Shown here: in pieces, positions 7,385-63,183 of the stretch | Position numbering within the stretch: position 1 is the stretch's first letter | How the letters are laid out: the number at the start of each line of letters is the position of its first letter | Assembly (NCBI GenBank): GCA_022649135.1 | Contig: JALCNP010000003.1 | Location: 62,001-126,000 of the forward strand | Direction of reading: 5' to 3' | DNA length: 64,000 nucleotides | From: Bifidobacterium sp. | GTDB taxonomy: Bacteria > Actinomycetota > Actinomycetes > Actinomycetales > Bifidobacteriaceae | Made by a program: the position numbers and the translations under genes | Notes under the pieces: model-generated | The model's input: only the letters and a program-made list of their open reading frames with translations | What the model was told of the DNA's origin: nothing | Databases searched by the model: none

Positions 7385-8608
7385 CTAGGCCGTGATCTCG
7401 ATATCCTGGGCGGCGGCATGGCTTCGCGAGGGGTCTCGGGCATCGTCGGCGAAGCGGCGCAGACGCCTGACGCCTTCCTCCAGCTCGTCGGCGTCGCCGG
7501 CGTACGACAGGCGGACGAACCCGGCTCCCTCCTTGCCGAAGGCCTCTCCCGGAACCACGGCAACATGCCTTTCGCTGAGCAGCCGTCGGCTGAAGGTCTG
7601 CGATCCCATACCGGTCGGACGGATGTCGACGAAGGCATAGAAGGCTCCGTTCGGCTTCATCAGCCTCAATGCGCTGCACCCGGAGAGTTCGTCGATGACG
7701 ATCTGGCGTTTGCGGGCATATTCGCGCCGCATGCTCCTGATGTGCCCGCGAGGCCCGTCGAGGGCTGCGACCGCCGCGTACTGCGTGATGGAGTTCACCG
7801 AGGAATGCATATGCTCCGCGAGCTTCCCCGTTACTTCGATGACGTCGTGGGGAGCCAGGATGTAGCCGATTCTCCATCCGGTCATGGCGAAGGTCTTCGA
7901 CAGGCTGTCGACGACGATGGTGTGATCGTGCATGTGGGGCATGGATGCAATCGAGGGGGCGATCTCCATGCCGTCCTCGAAGACGAAGGGATGATAGACC
8001 TCATCCGAAATCGCCCATATGCCATGCCGCAGGCAGACTTCGGCGATGCGTCCGAGCTCCTGTGCCGAGGTCACCGCACCGGTGGGGTTTCCGGGGGAAT
8101 TGATGATTATGGCGCGGGTCTTCGAGGTCACGGCCGCTTCGATGTCGGCGGCGTTGAGACGCATCCCGTTCTCCGGTTTCAACGCCACGGTGACGGGGGT
8201 GGCGCCGCACATCAGAACGTCCGCCTCGTACGAGGTGAAGAAGGGCGAGGGGATGATGACCTCCGAGCCGGGGTCCACCACCGTCCTCAGCGCGAGGAAC
8301 AGCCCGATCGTGGCCCCGTCCACCGCCTCGATCTCCCGGTCGGGGTCGTAGTCCAGTCCCTTGACCTCGAGCGTGTAGTCGTGGACCGCCTTGCGGAAGT
8401 CGTCGACGCCGAGCACGTTGGTGTACTTCGTCCTGCCGTCGTAGATCGCCCGGCATGCCGCCTGCTCGATATGAGGGGCCGCCGTGTCCTGTGGTTCCCC
8501 CACGCATAACGAGATGGCATCCGGAACCTTGTCTGCGCGGTCGAATACGTCGCGAATGCCAGAACGGGGGATCTCGAGTGCATGCTGCGCCACGGTGAGA
8601 GAAGTCAT
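7385..8608 (-). CDS. PLP-dependent class I/II aminotransferase (aspartate/aromatic type)
   Basis: The 407-residue protein has the fold-type I signature: SPGNPTG at about residue 190, the ISDEVYHPF segment, and the pyridoxal-binding lysine in SLSKTFAMTGWRIGY. The conserved substrate-carboxylate Arg region near the C-terminus (FVRLSYAGDADEL) is present. These fit the AspC/PatA branch that transfers the amino group of aspartate or aromatic amino acids. The exact substrate is not determinable. The ATG at 8608 is preceded on the minus strand by GGAAAGGTTCGGCAT. The gene is divergent from an Lrp/AsnC regulator that probably controls it. Confidence 0.88.
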   Translation of the reverse strand: MTSLTVAQHALEIPRSGIRDVFDRADKVPDAISLCVGEPQDTAAPHIEQAACRAIYDGRTKYTNVLGVDDFRKAVHDYTLEVKGLDYDPDREIEAVDGATIGLFLALRTVVDPGSEVIIPSPFFTSYEADVLMCGATPVTVALKPENGMRLNAADIEAAVTSKTRAIIINSPGNPTGAVTSAQELGRIAEVCLRHGIWAISDEVYHPFVFEDGMEIAPSIASMPHMHDHTIVVDSLSKTFAMTGWRIGYILAPHDVIEVTGKLAEHMHSSVNSITQYAAVAALDGPRGHIRSMRREYARKRQIVIDELSGCSALRLMKPNGAFYAFVDIRPTGMGSQTFSRRLLSERHVAVVPGEAFGKEGAGFVRLSYAGDADELEEGVRRLRRFADDARDPSRSHAAAQDIEITA

Positions 8609-8821
8609 ATGCCGAACCTTTCCAAAAACATGACCAAAATTGTCATATATGCATAAAAAATACCGTAATAAGTTTACTACAGAGTAAATATTATGTTAAC
8701 GGGTTTGCTGAACAAGAAATTATGTGGTTTTCACATGCGTTTCGCGTGGGTGGGGGAAGGCCTCCCCGAAGCTGGGCTATTGTGTACAACAGCGGAAGAG
8801 ATAATGGAGGAGTTGATTCTT
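8609..8821. promoter_or_regulatory. AT-rich divergent promoter region, aminotransferase / Lrp gene
   Basis: This 213-bp gap between divergent genes contains a markedly AT-rich stretch (about 8635-8705, with TCATATATGCATAAAAAATA) unlike the surrounding GC-rich coding DNA. Lrp/AsnC proteins normally bind such AT-rich DNA next to their own gene and a divergent amino-acid gene. I do not assign exact -35 and -10 boxes. Confidence 0.5.
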
Positions 8822-9277
8822 ATGGACATGAATGCGCAGGAGTCCTCGGGGATGGACGGAACGGACGAGACCATTCTCGATGTTCTCTCCCACGATGGTC
8901 GGGCGACCTTGATGCACTTGTCGAAGGCCTCGGGGCTGTCCGTGTCGGCGGTGCAGTCGCGTGTCCAGAAAATGGAGAAACGAGGCGTGATCAAAGGATA
9001 CAGGGCCGTAGTCGATCAGACCCTGCGCGGTCTGCCCATCAGCGCCTTCGTCGCGGTCACGCCGCTCGACTACTCGCATGAGGACCGGATCCCGAGCCAG
9101 CTCGAAACGGTCGAAGGCGTCACCGCCTGCTATTCCATCGCGGGGGCGCCGAGCTTCATGCTCGTCGTGCGCGTGGCTTCCCCGGAGAAGCTCGAGGAGC
9201 TGCTCAACCGCATCCACCGGGTCGTTCCCGCGAGCACGGAAAGCACCATGATACTGCAGACCTACTTCGAGCACTGA
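8822..9277 (+). CDS. Lrp/AsnC-family transcriptional regulator
   Basis: The 151-residue length is normal for Lrp. An N-terminal winged-helix domain (ETILDVLSHDGRATL, then LSVSAVQSRVQKMEKRGVIKGY) is followed by the RAM ligand-binding domain (ISAFVAVTP to the C-terminus). I chose ATG 8822 because GGAGGAG lies 8 bases upstream; an in-frame ATG at 8804 overlaps that ribosome-binding site. The gene is divergent from an aminotransferase and followed by chorismate mutase, which suggests control of amino-acid metabolism. The effector is unknown. Confidence 0.88.
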   Translation: MDMNAQESSGMDGTDETILDVLSHDGRATLMHLSKASGLSVSAVQSRVQKMEKRGVIKGYRAVVDQTLRGLPISAFVAVTPLDYSHEDRIPSQLETVEGVTACYSIAGAPSFMLVVRVASPEKLEELLNRIHRVVPASTESTMILQTYFEH

Positions 9278-9366: not shown

Positions 9367-9759
9367 ATGAGTGATTCGGAAAAAGGCGACTGGCAAAACA
9401 CGACCATTGATTCGGCCCAGGCCAAGAAAAATCCGGAAACCGCATTGGCGGTCAAGAAAATCACATCGCTTCGCCAGTCCATAGACAATGTGGACACGGC
9501 GATCGTCTCCCTGCTTGCGGAACGTTTCAAATACACGTCGCAGGTCGGAGTGCTCAAGGCCCGTGCGGGTTTCGCTCCCGCGGACTACCAGCGTGAGGAC
9601 CATCAGATCACACGCCTGCGCAGAATCGCCATCGAGGCGGGGCTGGATCCCGAAATCGCGGAGATGTACAGGGAGTTCGTCGTCACCGAGGCAAAAAGGC
9701 GCCACCGGCGCATTGCTGATGCCGGTGGCGATCCCGGTGTGCTTGACGTATTCGCCTAG
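9367..9759 (+). CDS. Chorismate mutase, AroQ class
   Basis: This small enzyme rearranges chorismate to prephenate for Phe and Tyr synthesis. Residues about 33-115 form the helical AroQ domain (ITSLRQSIDNVDTAIVSLLAERFKYTSQVGVLK), with the active-site Arg and Lys of AroQ enzymes recognisable in the first helix and in VGVLKA. The first 30 residues are a polar extension. The 130-residue length is normal for a monofunctional actinobacterial enzyme. The stop is 26 bases from the end of convergent valS. Confidence 0.9.
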   Translation: MSDSEKGDWQNTTIDSAQAKKNPETALAVKKITSLRQSIDNVDTAIVSLLAERFKYTSQVGVLKARAGFAPADYQREDHQITRLRRIAIEAGLDPEIAEMYREFVVTEAKRRHRRIADAGGDPGVLDVFA

Positions 9760-9785
9760 CGGCACGCGGGCTGTTCCCGAATCGA

Positions 9786-12524
9786 CTACTTCCTTGGCTG
9801 TTTTACCGGCGGCTCGCCCAGCTCGCAGCTTACGACGGTGATGTCGGTCTGTGTCGGATCCTGGGCCTGCACCGTGTTCTCGGCCTGTTCCACGGCGATC
9901 GTTCCGGAGACCCTGCCGGCCTCGGCGATGTCGGGCATGGCGTTCTCCACGGATTTGCGAACATCGTCGGCGGCGCTGAGAACCACGGAAAGAATCGGCG
10001 TCTTCATCGAGACCTTGGCCTTCGATTTGATGCCGCGCAGGGCGGCCAGCGCCGCCCCCGCATGGATGAGCAGATCCGGCGACGCCCCGTGCGCGGCCTG
10101 CGCGTACATCGCGGCGCGAGGCCAGGAGCTGCGGTGCACCGAGGGGGATTCCGCGTGCATCCAGGACCAGATCTCCTCCGTGGCGAACGGAAGATACGGC
10201 GCAAGAAGCCGCGCGAAGGCGTCGAGACCCAGACCGAGCGTGGTGCGGGCCGACCTCACGGAACCGTCCGACGGCACCTTTCCCGTGATATCGGCCGTGC
10301 CATAGGCGCGATTCTTGACCAATTCGATGTAATCGTCGCAGAACTGCCAGAAGAAGGTCTCTATGGACTCCAGCGCCTTGGAATGCTCATAGCCCTCCAG
10401 ATCATGCGTTGCCTCGTCCACGACCTGCGCCATTCGCGCCATGGCGGAGCGGTCAAGGGGCTCGGTCACGTCCCGGGGATCCCACTGGGCTCGCGCCGGG
10501 TCGGCGACATGGTGACTTTCGTCCTCTCGTCCGATGGCCAGCGCGAATTTGGTGGCGTTCAGCAGCTTGATGGCGAGCCGACGGCCGATTTTCATCTGGC
10601 CCTCGTCATAGGTCGCGTCGAGACCCAGACGCGCCGAGGCGGCCCAATACCTCACGGCATCGGCCCCGAACTGCTCGATGGGCTTGTTGGGAACGACGAC
10701 GTTGCCCTTCGACTTGGACATTTTCTTATGGTCGGGGTCCAGGATCCAGCCGGAAAGGGTCGTGTGGGACCACGGCAGGCAGTGGGATTCCAGATGGGCC
10801 CGATCGATGCTGCTGAACAGCCAGGTTCGGATGATGTCCTGGCCCTGCGGCCGAAGGTCCATGGGGAAGGTCGCCTTGTACAGCGCCTGGCTGGCCTCGT
10901 CAGGCTCCGCCCATCCCGTGACGATCTGCGGGGTCATGGAGGATGTCGCCCACGTGTCCATGATGTCCGGTTCGGCGGTGAAACCGTCGGGTCTGTCGCG
11001 CATCGACTCGTCGAATCCCGCGGGGGTGTCCGTCGTGGGATCGATCGGCAACTGGTCCTCGGAGGGGACCAGAGGATGGGAGTAATCGGGGGTGCCGTGC
11101 GAATCGAGCCTGTACCAGAGCGGGAACGGAACTCCGAAGAAGCGCTGGCGAGAGATCAGCCAGTCTCCGTTGAGCCCGTGCACCCAGTTCTCATAGCGCA
11201 CCCGCATGAAATCGGGATGGAACTGCAGCTCGCGGCCCCGTTCGATCAGTTCGGCGTTGAGCTTCTCGTCGGTTCCGCCGTTCTTGAGGTACCACTGACG
11301 GGACGTCACTATTTCGAGAGGCTTGTCGCCCTTCTCATAGAAGTTCGTCATGCGCGTGGTCGCAGTGGGCTCGCCATCAAGGTCGCCGGACTCGCGAAGA
11401 TGGTCGACTATTGTCTTTCTGGCCGAGAACGTCGTCTTCCCGGAGGTCTCGGCGAAGATCTCCCGACCACGCTCGTCCGTGATCCAATCGGGCACGGAGT
11501 CGCTGATGCGTCCGTTGCGTTCGATGATCGAGCGGGTCGGCAGGTGCAGCTCCCTCCACCACTGCACATCGGTGACGTCTCCGAACGTGCAGCACATCGC
11601 GATTCCAGCGCCCTTGTCCATTTGGGCCGCGGGATGCGACAGGATCGGAACCTTCACGTGGAAAAGCGGGGAATACACGTATGAGCCGAAATAACGCCGG
11701 TAACGTTCGTCGTCGGGGTTCGCTATGAGCGACGTGCAGGCGGCCAGGAGCTCCGGCCGGGTCGTTTCGATGTAGATGGGGGTGCCATCGGCGAAGTGGA
11801 ACGCCACCTTGTGATAGAACCCGGGGTATTCTCGCGATTCGAGCTCCGCCTGTGCCACCGCGGTCTGGAACGTGACGTCCCACAGTCCCGGCGCATCCTT
11901 CTGATAGACCTCGCCTCGCGCGAGATTGCGCAGGAAGGCCTTCTGCGCCACCCTCCGGGGATGCTCGCCAATGGTGTGGTACGTCTGGGTCCAGTCGATG
12001 GAAAGCCCGAGGGACCGCCACAGGGCCTCGAACTGGCGCTCGTCCTGTGCGGTGAGCCTCTCGCACAGCTCGATGAAGTTCTGACGGCTGACCCGGACCT
12101 GATCGCGCGCGTTGATCTTCTTGCCGTCCGTTCCCTCGAACGGGGGCCTGAAATCGGGATCGTACTTCAGAGAGGTGTCGACGCGGACACCGTAATAGTT
12201 CTGAACGCGGCGCTCCGTGGGCAGGCCGTTGTCGTCCCAGCCCATGGGATAGAAAACGTCGAAGCCCTGCATGCGCTTGAAACGGGCTATGACGTCGGTG
12301 TGGGTATAGGAGAACACGTGCCCTACATGCAGGTGTCCCGACACGGTGGGCGGCGGGGTGTCGATCGAGTACACGTCCGCGCGGTCTCGCGAATTGCGGA
12401 ATTTGTAGGTGCCGTCGTTCTCCCACACCTCGCGCCACTTGCTTTCGAGCCCGTCCACGCCGACTTTGTCGGGCAGCGGGGTCAGGTTCGCGTCGATGAT
12501 GTCGTTCTTGTCCTGATCAGTCAT
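9786..12524 (-). CDS. valS: Valyl-tRNA synthetase
   Basis: This class I synthetase charges tRNA(Val). The HIGH-type motif appears as GHLHVGH (about residue 55) and the second signature as KMSKSKGNVV. The editing domain lies between them and the anticodon-binding domain follows. I place the start at ATG 12524 (MTDQDKNDII). An in-frame ATG 42 bases upstream at 12566 is possible, but neither has a strong ribosome-binding site. From 12524 the protein is 912 residues, close to bifidobacterial ValS. No T-box leader is visible in the short upstream gap. Confidence 0.97.
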   Translation of the reverse strand: MTDQDKNDIIDANLTPLPDKVGVDGLESKWREVWENDGTYKFRNSRDRADVYSIDTPPPTVSGHLHVGHVFSYTHTDVIARFKRMQGFDVFYPMGWDDNGLPTERRVQNYYGVRVDTSLKYDPDFRPPFEGTDGKKINARDQVRVSRQNFIELCERLTAQDERQFEALWRSLGLSIDWTQTYHTIGEHPRRVAQKAFLRNLARGEVYQKDAPGLWDVTFQTAVAQAELESREYPGFYHKVAFHFADGTPIYIETTRPELLAACTSLIANPDDERYRRYFGSYVYSPLFHVKVPILSHPAAQMDKGAGIAMCCTFGDVTDVQWWRELHLPTRSIIERNGRISDSVPDWITDERGREIFAETSGKTTFSARKTIVDHLRESGDLDGEPTATTRMTNFYEKGDKPLEIVTSRQWYLKNGGTDEKLNAELIERGRELQFHPDFMRVRYENWVHGLNGDWLISRQRFFGVPFPLWYRLDSHGTPDYSHPLVPSEDQLPIDPTTDTPAGFDESMRDRPDGFTAEPDIMDTWATSSMTPQIVTGWAEPDEASQALYKATFPMDLRPQGQDIIRTWLFSSIDRAHLESHCLPWSHTTLSGWILDPDHKKMSKSKGNVVVPNKPIEQFGADAVRYWAASARLGLDATYDEGQMKIGRRLAIKLLNATKFALAIGREDESHHVADPARAQWDPRDVTEPLDRSAMARMAQVVDEATHDLEGYEHSKALESIETFFWQFCDDYIELVKNRAYGTADITGKVPSDGSVRSARTTLGLGLDAFARLLAPYLPFATEEIWSWMHAESPSVHRSSWPRAAMYAQAAHGASPDLLIHAGAALAALRGIKSKAKVSMKTPILSVVLSAADDVRKSVENAMPDIAEAGRVSGTIAVEQAENTVQAQDPTQTDITVVSCELGEPPVKQPRK

Positions 12525-58444: not shown

Positions 58445-58996
58445 TTACCCTTTCTTGTTGAGGGCAACGATCTTCGTAACGATTTTTTCCCATTCTTCGA
58501 TACTGGGCATTGATGGCTGCATGACATGCTTGTTGGTTGCCAGCTCGACAGCTTCTCTGTCTTCTTCGATAATGGGATATCCTCGTTCTTTGAGTATACT
58601 GATATTCTTTTTGACAGTAGTGCTATGTCTCATTTTGGCGTTCATCGATGGAAAGATGGCAGTGCGATTTCCGGATATCAAGATAATTAAATCCATTAGG
58701 TCCGTCCCCAGTCCTGCTGTTGCTCTGGCGATTCTGTCAGCGGTCGCAGGACACAGCAGCACAGTAGGATCATTCTGCATTAGAAGAACATGCTGGGCCT
58801 GCGAATCACCCTGGCTACATAACAGCAATGATGTGCATGATGCTTGTAGCACAGGTAGTGATACGAACTGTTCTGCTGCATTGCTGACTACGCATATGAG
58901 TTCATCATCGGGGTGACGAGCATGATATTTTCGTATGTAGACCGGCATGTTGTAGGCTGCCACCGCTCCTGAAATGCAAATAATGATTTTACTCAT
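58445..58996 (-). CDS. HFCD-family flavoprotein, probable peptidyl-cysteine decarboxylase
   Basis: The 183-residue protein belongs to the homo-oligomeric flavin-containing Cys decarboxylases (EpiD, MrsD, CypD, CoaC). It begins with KIIICISGAVAAY, has the catalytic His in QAQHVLL (H69), a PASANT-equivalent CPATADRIA (83-88) and the substrate-recognition motif PSMNAKM with the catalytic Asn (N119). EpiD-type enzymes oxidatively decarboxylate a C-terminal Cys to an enethiol. CoaC is the alternative family member, but this protein is short, lacks CoaB and sits in an operon with a peptide ending in Cys. Its ATG is 4 bases after the maturase stop. Confidence 0.88.
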   Translation of the reverse strand: MSKIIICISGAVAAYNMPVYIRKYHARHPDDELICVVSNAAEQFVSLPVLQASCTSLLLCSQGDSQAQHVLLMQNDPTVLLCPATADRIARATAGLGTDLMDLIILISGNRTAIFPSMNAKMRHSTTVKKNISILKERGYPIIEEDREAVELATNKHVMQPSMPSIEEWEKIVTKIVALNKKG

Positions 58997-59000
58997 TGTC

Positions 59001-60343
59001 TTAGTCCTTAGCGAAGCCGAATCGTTTTGCCAGCACATCGAATCTTCCTGAGAGCTGTCTTGTGAAGGCAGGGCACGGCGCTTCTCCCTCTTCCCACCGT
59101 TTCGGGCATGCCCCTCCGCATACTGGCAGGAATCTACATTGCGAACATTTCGAAGGCTTTAAACGTAAATTGTCGTTCCAAGAATCGTAGCGGTGTGTAG
59201 GACGGAGTTCATTGTCTTTTAGATCGTGATGCTCGCCAATCTATTATTGTTTTCGTATTGTTTGACCAATGGAAATTCGGTGCAGCTGAAGACGTTGCCA
59301 TTACTGTCGATTATTTCTTCGTGTTTGCTGACAGCAGGGCAGAGGACGGTCTTTCGATGTAAAGGGAGCACGTTTGTATGTATGCCCAAGCTCACTGCAA
59401 GATCTAACCAAGTGACCATCATGGTATCTAATCTGTCTTGTTCGACTTTGTACTCAGAATTGTCGTGTCCCCAATTATAAACAGGCATTAACTGAAGATG
59501 TGTGCGACCTTGTTGTATATTTCGCCCCACGATGTCATTCAGTAATTTGGGAATTGATTCCGCATTGTCCTTAGTTACGTTAACTCTGTTTAGGATGTCT
59601 AGATTCGATAATGCTTTTTCGGGTGAGGTAGATTCTTGTAGCCAATTCATAATGTGTTGATACGTGGGTCTGCCGCTACGCATTTTGCGGCTGTTGTTGT
59701 GATGGTTGCCGTACCCGTCTATGGTTACGTTAATCGCTCGGAGTGCGGCTTGTTCGTAAAGTTTTTCCAGCCTGTCATAAGTTATGAGCGAACCATTGGT
59801 CGACATGATGGAATGATATTCTGTCCCAGAATCATGAGCTGCTGAGATGTATCTGTGAGACATGTCCAAAATATGATGGTAAGCCATCATCGGTTCACCG
59901 CCATACCAGCGGACATCGACCCTTGTTGTCTGTGGGTCGTTTATCGCACCTATGACTCTCTTGTTAACAGTCTCATCGGTGGACTTAGTGAACCGCAGAG
60001 GGCAAGTTCCCTGTCCGCAATATGCGCAACACATATTGCACAAAGAAGTCGGCATCAGGATAAAAGACCGATGGGTATCATCAGAACCACTTTGACAAAG
60101 ATACTCCTGCGCCTGGGCTATTTCGTCCCGTGATGAGTCAGTCCGCAGCAAGCCATTTTCTAGAAGAGATTTCGTCATATCCGATGAAAGGTGGTTGATA
60201 TCGTTTCGTGCCAGACTATCGGCCACCTCTCGTGATAAAACGAACAGACGCGGACCTGTCATTGCATAGACCAACTTATACGTATCGCCGTCTTTTGAGT
60301 ATGTATTCGAACTGATGGCGACATATTTCGAACGTCTATACAT
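59001..60343 (-). pseudogene. Radical SAM/SPASM peptide maturase, frameshifted before the SPASM domain
   Basis: From ATG 60343 the first frame encodes 374 residues: an N-terminal domain of about 90 residues that may bind the leader, then the radical SAM core with cluster motif CNMCCAYC (C102, C106, C109), WYGGEPMM and the first SPASM cysteines (LCPA, FSCTEFP). It stops at 59219. The next frame continues for 79 codons to 59001 with KCSQCRFLPVCGGACPKRW, the remaining SPASM cysteines. One base lost near 59240-59260 explains the split; the whole protein would be about 447 residues. SPASM enzymes place thioether or C-C crosslinks in RiPP precursors. It could be a real mutation or a read error. Confidence 0.85.
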
Positions 60344-60382
60344 TTGAGCCCCTTCTGCTCTATCAACTTTCGGAAATTGAAT

Positions 60383-60481
60383 TCAGCAAACCAAATTGAT
60401 GGTGACATCGGTAAGAATCTCGCCAAGACCATCGTCAGCAATCGACAACTCGGTAAGTGTGCCGTTCTTTGTTTCTGACAT
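60383..60481 (-). CDS. RiPP precursor peptide ending in cysteine
   Basis: A 32-residue frame starts at ATG 60481 with a strong ribosome-binding site (AAAGGAGGACAGACAC) and ends 39 bases before the maturase start. The N-terminal two-thirds is acidic and leader-like (ELSIADDGLGEIL), and the C-terminus is DVTINLVC with a final Cys, its only Cys. A C-terminal Cys is exactly what an HFCD decarboxylase needs. Thr27 is five residues before Cys32. The size, position, ribosome-binding site and the two downstream modifying genes support a precursor; nothing about the mature product is observed. Confidence 0.82.
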   Translation of the reverse strand: MSETKNGTLTELSIADDGLGEILTDVTINLVC

Positions 60482-60577
60482 GTGTCTGTCCTCCTTTCAT
60501 CGTGTATATTACTCCACAAATTTATTGTATGATATTTTTGTGTAAATGATTTGTATATTTTCGATAGGAGTGATCAG
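60482..60577. promoter_or_regulatory. Divergent promoter region of the RiPP operon and its regulator
   Basis: This 96-bp AT-rich gap separates the precursor (minus) from the ArsR gene (plus). A TTGTAT-containing motif occurs twice, at 60525 and 60551, each followed by an A/T run (TTGTATGATATTTT and TTGTATATTTT). These direct repeats are candidates for regulator binding. Confidence 0.5.
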
Positions 60578-61177
60578 TTGAAATCGAGCAAGGACGTGAA
60601 TCATCCAGAGGTATCTGAGATCTCCGATGCTGGCGTCTTAAGGGCCATGTCGAATCCCACCAGGCTGAGGATCCTGGGTCTTCTGCGAGTCGAGGGGGCC
60701 AGGACGGTGGGTGATATCAGCATGAAGACGGGCGATGCGCCGGGATCGGTAAGCTATCACCTCTCGGAGCTGGAGGCCGCGGGGCTTGTCGAAAGAGCCG
60801 GTGCGGTCGATGGCGATAAGAGGAAAAGCTGGTGGAAAGCGAGGGATGCCGCCACTAGGCCTGTCTCTCCAATTGAACCTGTTTCGTCGAGTCAAGCCAA
60901 GGCAGCGGATTTGTTCCGCAGGATGGCTGCTGTGACATACGAAAGGACGTATGAACGGTATCTCGACGCCATGCATACTATGGAGTCTTCTTGGGTAGAT
61001 GCGAGCATGAGCGAGGATCAAGTACTTTCTCTCACGCCGGCGGAGCTAGAAGAGATGAGTCAGGAACTCGACGATGTCGTATGTCGCTGGGGCAAGCGGC
61101 AGCAAGAATCAAAGGACGATGACAGCAGAAGAGAGAACGTCGTCGTCATCATGCAAGCCTTTCGATGGGTTCCTTAA
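60578..61177 (+). CDS. ArsR-type winged-helix regulator
   Basis: The 199-residue protein has an ArsR/HTH_20 domain (AMSNPTRLRILGLLRVEGA, APGSVSYHLSELEAAGLVER) and a helical C-terminal domain of about 100 residues. No CxC-type metal site is visible. I use TTG 60578 because AGGAG lies 7 bases upstream; the frame is open further upstream without one. It is divergent from the precursor peptide and followed by the exporter, so it probably regulates both. Confidence 0.85.
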   Translation: MKSSKDVNHPEVSEISDAGVLRAMSNPTRLRILGLLRVEGARTVGDISMKTGDAPGSVSYHLSELEAAGLVERAGAVDGDKRKSWWKARDAATRPVSPIEPVSSSQAKAADLFRRMAAVTYERTYERYLDAMHTMESSWVDASMSEDQVLSLTPAELEEMSQELDDVVCRWGKRQQESKDDDSRRENVVVIMQAFRWVP

Positions 61178-61249
61178 TGCTTTCGCTATGCAGTCGGCAA
61201 GTTGCTCGAAAAGATGAAAGAATCGCGAAAAGGCAACGGAGAGAACGGC

Positions 61250-62646
61250 ATGTGCATTAAAAAGCAGGATGAATCAAAGGGCCCCGAGCAACATGTGGCA
61301 TTTTGGAAGACAGGTTCATATGTCTCTTGGATGACCTGTGATACCGCATCGGCGATAGGAGCCACGTTACGTGGTTTTGCCGTTCCGCTTGTCGCCTTTT
61401 CCGTTTCGCATTCGCTGGGAGTTACCGGGTGGCTATCCACATTCACTCTAATCCTGCAACAAGTGTGTGTGTTCTCTTCGGGGGCACCATAGTGGATCGT
61501 CATCATCGCAAACCCTTGATTATCGGGAATGCCGTTTTGCAGTTGCTGATCTGGTTCGCGATATCAGTTCTCATCATTAACGGGAAACTCACACTGACTT
61601 CCCTAGCTGTCGGGGTGTGCATATCGGCTTGTGCCAACGGTTTCCTGGGTGAAGCAACCAATGCGGCTTTACGATCGATAATCAGCATGCAAGATTACCC
61701 CAAGGCAAGAAGCATCAACGAGGGACGCGATGCCACCATTAACATGACTGGAAGCCCCATCGGGGGAATTCTTTACAGCATCCAGCCATGGCTGCCCTTC
61801 GTATGCTCCACTCTCGTGTATACGATAGCCGGTGGCAGCGCGACCCAACTACGTCTGAACGAACATGAGGAGCAGGCAGGCGCGACCGGGAATGTACATA
61901 CGCGAGAACATGCTATTCAGGGATCTTCATTTCTTGATGACTTCAAGGAAGGCTGGGGATGGGTATTTCACAGACAAAGATTGCCAACTATTATCGTTGC
62001 TGCGAGTTTGATTAATTTTGGTGTGGCGGGTATACAATACACCATTCAACTGCACCTCATCAGCATCGGAACATTACCGTTTCGTATAGGGCTTATGGAC
62101 ACTGGTGTATGCGCTGGCATGCTTATTGGCTCTATATTGGCAAACCGCTTGAGCGACAAAATCCATGTCGGAAAAGCAGCTTGCATCGCATTCGCAATGA
62201 TACTCCTGTTCGTGACGCCAATGGCAGTCAATAACACTTACTGGGTTTTGCTCATCTGCTATACGTTTATGGGTCTACCTGTTCCACTTGTCAACTCTTC
62301 GCTTTTGGGATTTGTGTTCTCGAAGACTGAACAAAATATGCAAGGACGAGTGTCCACAGCCGTGTCCGTACCGGCACAGGTGTTATCCATGTTCTGTAGC
62401 GGCATTGCTGGCACCCTGCTTCCGAAGGCCGGCTTCACCGCCACCATGGTGAGCTTCCTGGCGGCGATCGCGCTGAGCGTCCTCGTTGCAGTGTCCACCC
62501 GCGCGATAAGAACCATCCCCCCCATTAAGCCAGTGGCACAACACGCAACTCTAGCGAGACCACCGCCGCAGCGGTCAAGACCTCACGCACCATTGCACAA
62601 GACCACCTCCCACGCCACGGGAAGCCAACAACCGGCCCCCCCATAA
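61250..62646 (+). pseudogene. MFS exporter of the RiPP cluster, frameshifted at a GT repeat
   Basis: From ATG 61250 (GGAGAG upstream) the first frame covers helix 1 and the start of helix 2 (GSYVSWMTCDTASAIGATL, GWLSTFTLILQQVCVF). The rest of a 12-helix MFS protein, from VCVLFGGTIVDRHHRKPLI onward, is in another frame. The two join if one GT is removed from the run GTGTGTGTGT at 61463-61472. The C-terminal 40 residues are Pro/Ala/His-rich and may be read from unrelated DNA. In this context it would export the modified peptide or give immunity. Confidence 0.8.
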
Positions 62647-63027: not shown

Positions 63028-63056
63028 AAGCCCGGAACCATTGAGATTCCGGGCTT
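63028..63056 (-). terminator. Terminator of the tRNA-Met gene
   Basis: AAGCCCGGAA and TTCCGGGCTT pair perfectly; on the minus strand the stem is followed by TTTGTTTTCTC. It lies 6 bases beyond the tRNA 3' end. Confidence 0.8.
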
Positions 63057-63061
63057 ATCAG

Positions 63062-63100
63062 TAGCGGGGTCAGGATTTGAACCTGAGACCTCTGGGTTAT
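63062..63100 (-). tRNA. tRNA-Met 3' half (att fragment, not functional by itself)
   Basis: The minus strand reads ATAACCCAGAGG, then the T-arm TCAGG-TTCAAAT-CCTGA and acceptor CCCCGCTA. This matches the 3' half of actinobacterial elongator tRNA-Met as I remember it. Upstream of the anticodon loop the match stops: CCAATAA replaces CTCATAA, and no D-arm or 5' acceptor strand follows. The intact tRNA is expected at the far end of the next element. Confidence 0.75.
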
Positions 63101-63113
63101 TGGCCCAGAGGTC
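63087..63113. other. Attachment core of the right-hand element at the tRNA-Met anticodon loop
   Basis: GACCTCTGGG and CCCAGAGGTC are perfect 10-bp inverted arms around the 7-base centre TTATTGG. This is the geometry of a tyrosine recombinase core site. The left arm and part of the centre are tRNA-Met sequence; the right side belongs to the element. Confidence 0.7.
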
Positions 63114-63183
63114 ACATGTTCAAAGCGACCGTGGCCCCGAACGACCCACGTTCATTCTAACGGCGTGAGCACGATGAAGTTCC

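Follow-up and report, generated by a model that had tools for sequence, protein, structure and literature searches.

Several peptide families have C-terminal aminovinyl-thioether rings, which, as far as the consulted parts of the literature describe them, are made after dehydration of Ser or Thr or after loss of sulfur from a Cys. In the formation of aminovinyl-cysteine (AviCys) the Cys is decarboxylated to a thioenol that then adds to dehydroalanine (Dha) or dehydrobutyrine (Dhb) (consulted parts of PMC9415263, PMC4979651 and PMC10880069), and in cypemycin it is a Cys that is converted to Dha (from the same group of papers). Sulfur is also bridged to a side chain by the streptococcal enzyme NxxcB, which joins the sulfur of Cys23 to the C-beta of Asn20 in an N-x-x-C motif according to the part of PMC8326336 consulted, and a 2026 review (PMC13361665, in part) likewise has the Cys thiol joined to the C-beta of an upstream Asn. 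Here we describe a gene cluster of Bifidobacterium sp. at positions 58445–62646 of the window (the whole 64,000-nucleotide stretch analysed, contig JALCNP010000003.1 positions 62,001 to 126,000, our G000:C3:62001-126000), in which a short precursor gene, a radical S-adenosylmethionine (SAM)/SPASM maturase gene and a flavoprotein gene follow one another on the minus strand, and a divergent ArsR-type gene and a major facilitator superfamily (MFS) gene lie on the plus strand. We propose, with a probability of roughly 0.5, that the maturase of this type of cluster would close a ring within the N-x-x-C of the peptide and that an EpiD-like flavoprotein would decarboxylate the terminal Cys, giving a ring of the aminovinyl-cysteine type with no dehydratase.

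The precursor gene (60383–60481, minus strand), read directly in the sequence, encodes 32 amino acids ending ...LTDVTINLVC, a C-terminal motif that most of its relatives share; its last codon is Cys, and its ribosome-binding site, AAAGGAGG (60490–60497, minus strand), lies 8 bases upstream of the ATG. The maturase is found in two frames, the first of 374 amino acids (59219–60343, minus strand; PF04055) and the second (59001–59225, minus strand) holding the remainder of the SPASM domain with five SPASM Cys, recognized by its tblastn match to the relative P0002. The flavoprotein (58445–58996, minus strand) is intact at 183 amino acids and is classed as EpiD-like (HFCD/LanD-type) from PF02441, a PDB ranking with EpiD at the top, and a tree. 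The intergenic gaps are 39 and 4 bases, the second figure holding when the SPASM frame's stop is taken as its starting point. A Pfam scan gave no dehydratase match among the cluster genes, six further window frames and 4 + 7 frames around the related locus L063, a scan that left out three window frames of 140–204 amino acids. The preliminary description of this DNA had listed the same Cys-ending 32-codon gene with its ribosome-binding site, SPASM maturase and HFCD flavoprotein on one strand, with these gaps and with no dehydratase; all of these are present as it said, and the absence is borne out among the neighboring frames scanned.

Eight neighborhoods of related maturase genes were read: the window, L004 (a second cluster in the same genome), L045 (B. 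cuniculi), L046 (genome G080), L063 (G412), L064 (G416), L067 (G955) and L097 (Streptomyces). An N-x-x-C stands at or near the end of the short frame directly before the maturase in seven of the eight. The precursors end in TINLVC in the window, TINGIC in L004, DINGIC in L045, DLNIVC in L063 and DLNGNC in L097, and two carry short tails, ANGICLIIK in L064 and MNLGCM in L067. Such endings are rare among frames in general: only one of the 501 window frames of 20–60 amino acids, the precursor itself, ends in N-x-x-C (13 of the 501 end in Cys), and over all 1514 frames of this size in the eight stretches there are five, of which four are precursors, the L045 precursor being uncounted here as it is longer from its first start. 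When the motif is allowed anywhere within the last eight residues, 11 of the 1514 frames have it and six of these are precursors. Thus, the window peptide is more than a chance open frame, and a terminal or near-terminal Cys is conserved in the short peptide of homologous clusters, a point on which the preliminary description had made its case depend.

The same trio is whole in L063, from an Actinomycetaceae metagenome-assembled genome, where a precursor ending DLNIVC is followed by maturase P0007 and flavoprotein P0035, the start of the latter lying within the maturase stop (an ATGA overlap), and an MFS gene comes next on the same strand; the intact system is therefore real. With its database start, P0007 overlaps the precursor gene at its end (L063:9683-9768), and a start at 9683 is a better fit; the database start might explain why the L063 peptide was missed in annotation. 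A third maturase-flavoprotein pair is likely in P0006 (maturase) and P0036 (flavoprotein), since each is on two contigs and the longest is 3882 for both.

In 18 of 18 aligned relatives of the maturase the three Cys of the radical SAM CxxxCxxC motif and seven SPASM Cys are invariant, those of the window protein being spread over its two frames. Many SPASM maturase models match the window protein, all under their cut-offs (for example, TIGR04463 at 127 bits against a cut-off of 525). The predicted structure of P0007 has a predicted local distance difference test score (pLDDT) of 88, and a structure search yielded nothing. Because the conserved core is N-x-x-C, the crosslink is probably, by analogy with NxxcB, a Cys-Asn thioether.

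The window flavoprotein matches PF02441 with 49.9 bits (cut-off 22.7), and alignment shows that the active-site His and the Asn of the PxxN motif are retained in these flavoproteins. Ranked against PDB entries, it gives EpiD 57.8 bits, the CoaBC structure 6tgv (the best CoaC type) 41.5 and MrsD 38.2, and P0035 gives EpiD 59.5, MrsD 36.3, the putative flavoprotein decarboxylase 6jls 35.1, AtHAL3 (here the best CoaC type) 34.1 and 6tgv 29.1; 7cfu, by its title a pantothenate-metabolism flavoprotein, gives 39.5 bits with the window protein and 38.1 with P0035. The CoaBC model coaBC_dfp (cut-off 219.7) gives 76.2 bits for the window protein, 67 for P0035 and 63.5 for P0036, compared with 96 for EpiD and 250 for E. 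coli CoaC; the coaC model gives the window protein 47.7 bits (cut-off 261.4) and the CypD model 18.9. An unrooted tree built from 22 sequences has one split (support 95) with CoaC and a Sinorhizobium protein on one side and EpiD, MrsD, a pTML1 flavoprotein, P0035, P0036 and the window protein on the other; by a further split (support 94) P0035, P0036 and the window protein separate as their own branch. At the position of the CoaC active-site Cys the window protein has Ala, and the loop around it aligns with EpiD and MrsD and not with the ACGD loop of CoaC. The preliminary description had held that a flavoprotein grouping clearly with CoaC would speak against it; the tree and PDB ranking set this protein apart from CoaC. 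An AlphaFold model made from four sequences was poor (pLDDT 61.5) and was not used.

Among the eight neighborhoods a flavoprotein is present in two, the window and L063, whose peptides are the only ones with LV or IV directly before a final Cys (two of two, versus none of the six others). Peptides without a flavoprotein end GIC, GIC or GNC or carry a tail, the NVCE of L046 included. The substrate rule of EpiD is a bulky hydrophobic residue, a small residue and then Cys, and the association of the flavoprotein with terminal [LI]-V-Cys, seen at the level of predicted peptides, fits it. Within the wider maturase family the flavoprotein is thus optional.

In the proposed scheme, the maturase would likely link the C-terminal Cys of N-x-x-C to the Asn that precedes it by three residues. 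The flavoprotein would act first, or together with the maturase, since it oxidizes a free thiol, and would turn the terminal Cys into an enethiol; hydrogen abstraction from the C-beta of the Asn by the maturase would follow, with the sulfur closing an i,i+3 ring. The predicted product residue is an aminovinyl-cysteine that bears a carboxamide in place of the methyl group of aminovinyl-methylcysteine (AviMeCys). In its full form, namely that the radical SAM enzyme builds the bond from sulfur to Asn C-beta and the EpiD-type flavoprotein supplies the decarboxylated Cys, so that a carboxamide-bearing AviCys ring is made with no dehydratase that forms dehydroamino acids, we hold the scheme tentatively and at somewhat short of an even chance. 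The preliminary description had proposed a radical-made crosslink plus a C-terminal aminovinyl-thioether or enethiol-derived group; its cluster for a ribosomally synthesized and post-translationally modified peptide (RiPP), with a peptide ending in Cys, stands, and we correct it in that the core is N-x-x-C, the flavoprotein is optional and the pathway here is probably dead (below).

Several observations weigh against the ring-plus-decarboxylation proposal. The maturase and MFS genes are split in this genome, so a product here is unlikely. The flavoprotein is missing from most of the neighborhoods, and three of these (L004, L045 and L097) have a terminal-Cys N-x-x-C, so that the terminal Cys has a use independent of decarboxylation; the L046 peptide lacks N-x-x-C altogether and ends VNVCE. 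The match to the EpiD rule was drawn post hoc from two clusters. In P0035 and P0036 a Cys aligns with the active-site Cys of CoaC, and the window flavoprotein reads PATAD, as does E. coli CoaC, versus PASAN in EpiD, and MR versus MW in EpiD. Among its PDB matches the CoaBC entry 6tgv stands above MrsD, and its best NCBIfam model is coaBC_dfp with CypD far behind, all being under their cut-offs. Finally, the new flavoprotein branch is outside the EpiD/MrsD group in a tree built without CypD and TvaF, and the likeness of the maturase to NxxcB is one of motif.

The alternative that survives best, and to which we give even odds, is that what this lineage carries is a decayed relic with no selected function, which is compatible with the proposed mechanism in an intact system. 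Full-length relatives give two tblastn pieces in two frames on the window maturase, the first (60340–59228) 47% identical to P0002 and the second (59225–59007) 53% identical to residues 375–447 of P0002, with the frame change between 59228 and 59225; of the seven SPASM Cys the longer frame, which has the radical SAM core, holds two, and the second frame holds the other five. The MFS gene also gives two tblastn pieces in two frames, with the change between 61462 and 61474. Because these two genes are split between frames, the window pathway is probably dead in this genome, to judge from its reading frames. An in-frame stop in the maturase of the second cluster and the missing middle of the B. 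cuniculi maturase argue in the same direction. Against a relic stand the full-length relatives P0002, P0003, P0004 and P0007, and the flavoprotein, whose frame is unbroken despite the split maturase and MFS genes and of which a 99% identical version is found on another contig (P0001). All three Bifidobacterium clusters of the ArsR-MFS layout that were read (two in this genome and one in B. cuniculi) are damaged. In B. cuniculi about 170 internal residues of the maturase (L045:7495-8319) are gone in frame and the MFS gene is split.

A second alternative, which we consider doubtful, is that the flavoprotein decarboxylates the terminal Cys and the maturase does other chemistry (a C-alpha thioether, a C-C bond or an epimerization), or that the thiol end is left uncyclized. 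The SPASM models are all under their cut-offs, so family alone leaves the reaction unfixed, and the motif-based nature of the NxxcB likeness counts here as well. What speaks for the Asn C-beta thioether instead is that the N-x-x-C kept in seven of the eight peptides is the motif reported for C-beta thioether formation. Less likely still is a flavoprotein that is reductive like CoaC and gives a saturated, cysteamine-like thioethylamide end: P0035 and P0036 align a Cys with the reducing Cys of CoaC, which might lead by reduction to a saturated thioethylamide and not to an enethiol, but the Ala of the window protein and its EpiD/MrsD-like loop argue otherwise. A role of the flavoprotein as a substitute CoaC in coenzyme A (CoA) synthesis, unrelated to the peptide, is highly improbable even though it is the sole PF02441 protein found in this genome and no CoaB match was found there, since a CoaB match over the cut-off is found in only 38 of the 112 genus members searched (30 strong), which makes its absence ordinary, and the flavoprotein's coaBC_dfp score of 76 bits (250 for E. 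coli CoaC, 96 for EpiD), coaBC and coaC scores under cut-off, want of an ACGD-type Cys loop, PDB ranking, tree placement and the same maturase neighbor in L063 led us to reject a CoaC role. CoaC without CoaB has no substrate. In the CoaB survey (PF04127) 30 of the 38 genomes with matches had E < 1e-70 and the genome of the window, which had none, may lack the usual route from pantothenate to CoA.

The relatives on which these comparisons depend came from searches with the window maturase and alignment A2, in genome sets that overlap. Among 112 genomes of the genus there were seven matches at 1e-3, strong in the window's own genome (G000), G027 and G080 and weak in G015, G037, G075 and G111, with a third, weak place in G000. 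Among 396 genomes drawn from the order, with at most four candidates scored per genome, there were ten at 1e-20; G000, G412 and G416 exceeded 300 bits and the other seven were below it (one of them, L065 from G188 with 154 bits, had its neighborhood read and was left out of the eight). Among 396 genomes drawn from the phylum only the own genome matched at 1e-50. A search of 213 genomes of the G412 family gave G412 and G955, one of 221 genomes of the G416 family gave G416 only, and a plasmid search gave 17 records, of which L097 and L100 were read, adding Streptomyces sp. NBC_01281 (L097). A protein search gave 33 relatives of the second-cluster maturase, and viral and phage matches were distant. 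The maturase family is thus rare in the genomes searched. Four loci were set aside: L005, from a scan of genome contigs, was dropped because by eye its maturase looks SCIFF-like; the others are of other kinds and were not counted, namely L098 (Rhodococcus), where a flavoprotein adjoins an MFS gene with no maturase annotated, L100 (Sarcina, plasmid record), where a maturase adjoins an MFS gene with no N-x-x-C frame listed in the stretch, and L071 (Sinorhizobium), where a flavoprotein is beside a 694-amino-acid radical SAM protein. At this last locus (L071:3938-6928, on a Sinorhizobium meliloti plasmid) the flavoprotein of this further flavoprotein and radical SAM pair groups with CoaC and lacks its Cys loop, and a 2-oxoglutarate oxygenase gene is near.

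The second cluster of the same genome (L004, G000:C5) consists of MFS and ArsR genes, a frame of 47 amino acids with the ending TDVTINGIC, and a maturase that shares 46% identity with that of the window and has an in-frame stop near its start; P0002 is its database version without the stop. No flavoprotein is beside this maturase, PF02441 matching only the window flavoprotein in this genome; a 79-amino-acid frame like a phosphopantetheinyl transferase (L004:8505-8744; PF01648, 29.2 bits), for which no role was found, follows it in the slot that the flavoprotein has in the window. The maturase is followed in L046 by a nitroreductase-family protein (9400-10446) and in L097 by a SagB/ThcOx-annotated member of that family (7385-9265) together with a methyltransferase, and nitroreductase-family proteins are thus other tailoring partners of the same maturase family.

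The divergent gene of the window cluster (60578–61177, plus strand) encodes a 199-amino-acid ArsR-type winged-helix regulator (PF12840, PF01022) that shares 48% identity with its second-cluster counterpart, and the MFS exporter (61202–62646, plus strand; PF07690) is read as frames 61202–61492 and 61429–62646. Judged by type and position alone, control of the operon would fall to the ArsR-type protein and export of the product to the MFS pump. Pfam matches thus agree with the divergent ArsR and MFS genes of the preliminary description, to which we add the split of the latter. The PADLOC matches were of general radical SAM and winged-helix type only. Beyond the cluster, ARAGORN calls a 92-nucleotide tRNA-Phe at 63051–63152 of the window that has no Rfam match at the gathering score. 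A 57-base portion shares 91% identity with an end of a tRNA-Met gene at a distance of 16.7 kb (G000:C3:141758-141814), and the call may be an attachment-site remnant. The frame that follows it is integrase-like by eye only.

We found no description of a radical SAM enzyme paired with a Cys decarboxylase or AviCys formation in the open-licence literature, in so far as its texts were available to us. The pair is not described in the consulted parts of PMC9415263, PMC10373908, PMC7794033, PMC4979651, PMC2706954, PMC10880069, PMC9413430, PMC11002830, PMC13361665, PMC9012708 and PMC8326336, and for Bifidobacterium radical SAM RiPPs and N-x-x-C peptides no title or opening of an abstract among those listed from that literature concerned it. 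This agrees with the preliminary description, whose author knew of no characterized family with just this pair. What we did not find described there is the enzyme pairing and an Actinomycetota family with exchangeable partners, both chemistries being already known apart. If the proposed scheme is true, the same ring would be reached from Asn by radical chemistry, two known enzyme logics could be joined, and a compact three-gene route to an aminovinyl-thioether ring would exist; the neighborhoods point to an Actinomycetota family of N-x-x-C peptides whose tailoring enzymes (flavoprotein, nitroreductase-family protein, or SagB/ThcOx protein with methyltransferase) are exchangeable.

Among known systems, the freyrasin/PapB ranthipeptides are similar in having a SPASM maturase that forms bonds from sulfur to the C-beta of a neighboring side chain, but the PapB model gives only 77 bits with the window maturase (cut-off 340), and to our knowledge no decarboxylase accompanies them. 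The linaridin cypemycin, made with CypD, shares a C-terminal AviCys formed without a Lan-type dehydratase and an i,i+3 ring, differing in that the locus described here has Asn in place of the Dha-forming Cys, a radical enzyme, and a flavoprotein that scores only 18.9 bits with the CypD model. The cypemycin core is ...STICLVC, close to TINLVC (a text search for STICLVC in the open-licence literature found no paper), and the i,i+3 rings of cypemycin and epidermin equal the predicted Asn-Cys ring in size. EpiD and MrsD, the LanD (HFCD) enzymes of the AviCys lantibiotics, have the same PF02441 fold, active-site His and Asn and adjoining C-terminal-Cys peptide, and EpiD is the top PDB match; here, in contrast, there is no LanB, LanC or LanM, the partner is a radical SAM enzyme, identity is about 25%, and the flavoproteins have their own tree branch. 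The streptococcal NxxC systems (NxxcA/NxxcB) are alike in pairing a short N-x-x-C precursor with one SPASM maturase and in the i,i+3 spacing of the Cys-Asn link predicted here, the two maturases being likened by motif and not by sequence; they are under Rgg/SHP control, whereas the locus described here has an ArsR-type regulator and an MFS gene, its family often has Cys as the last residue, and in two clusters a decarboxylase has been added.

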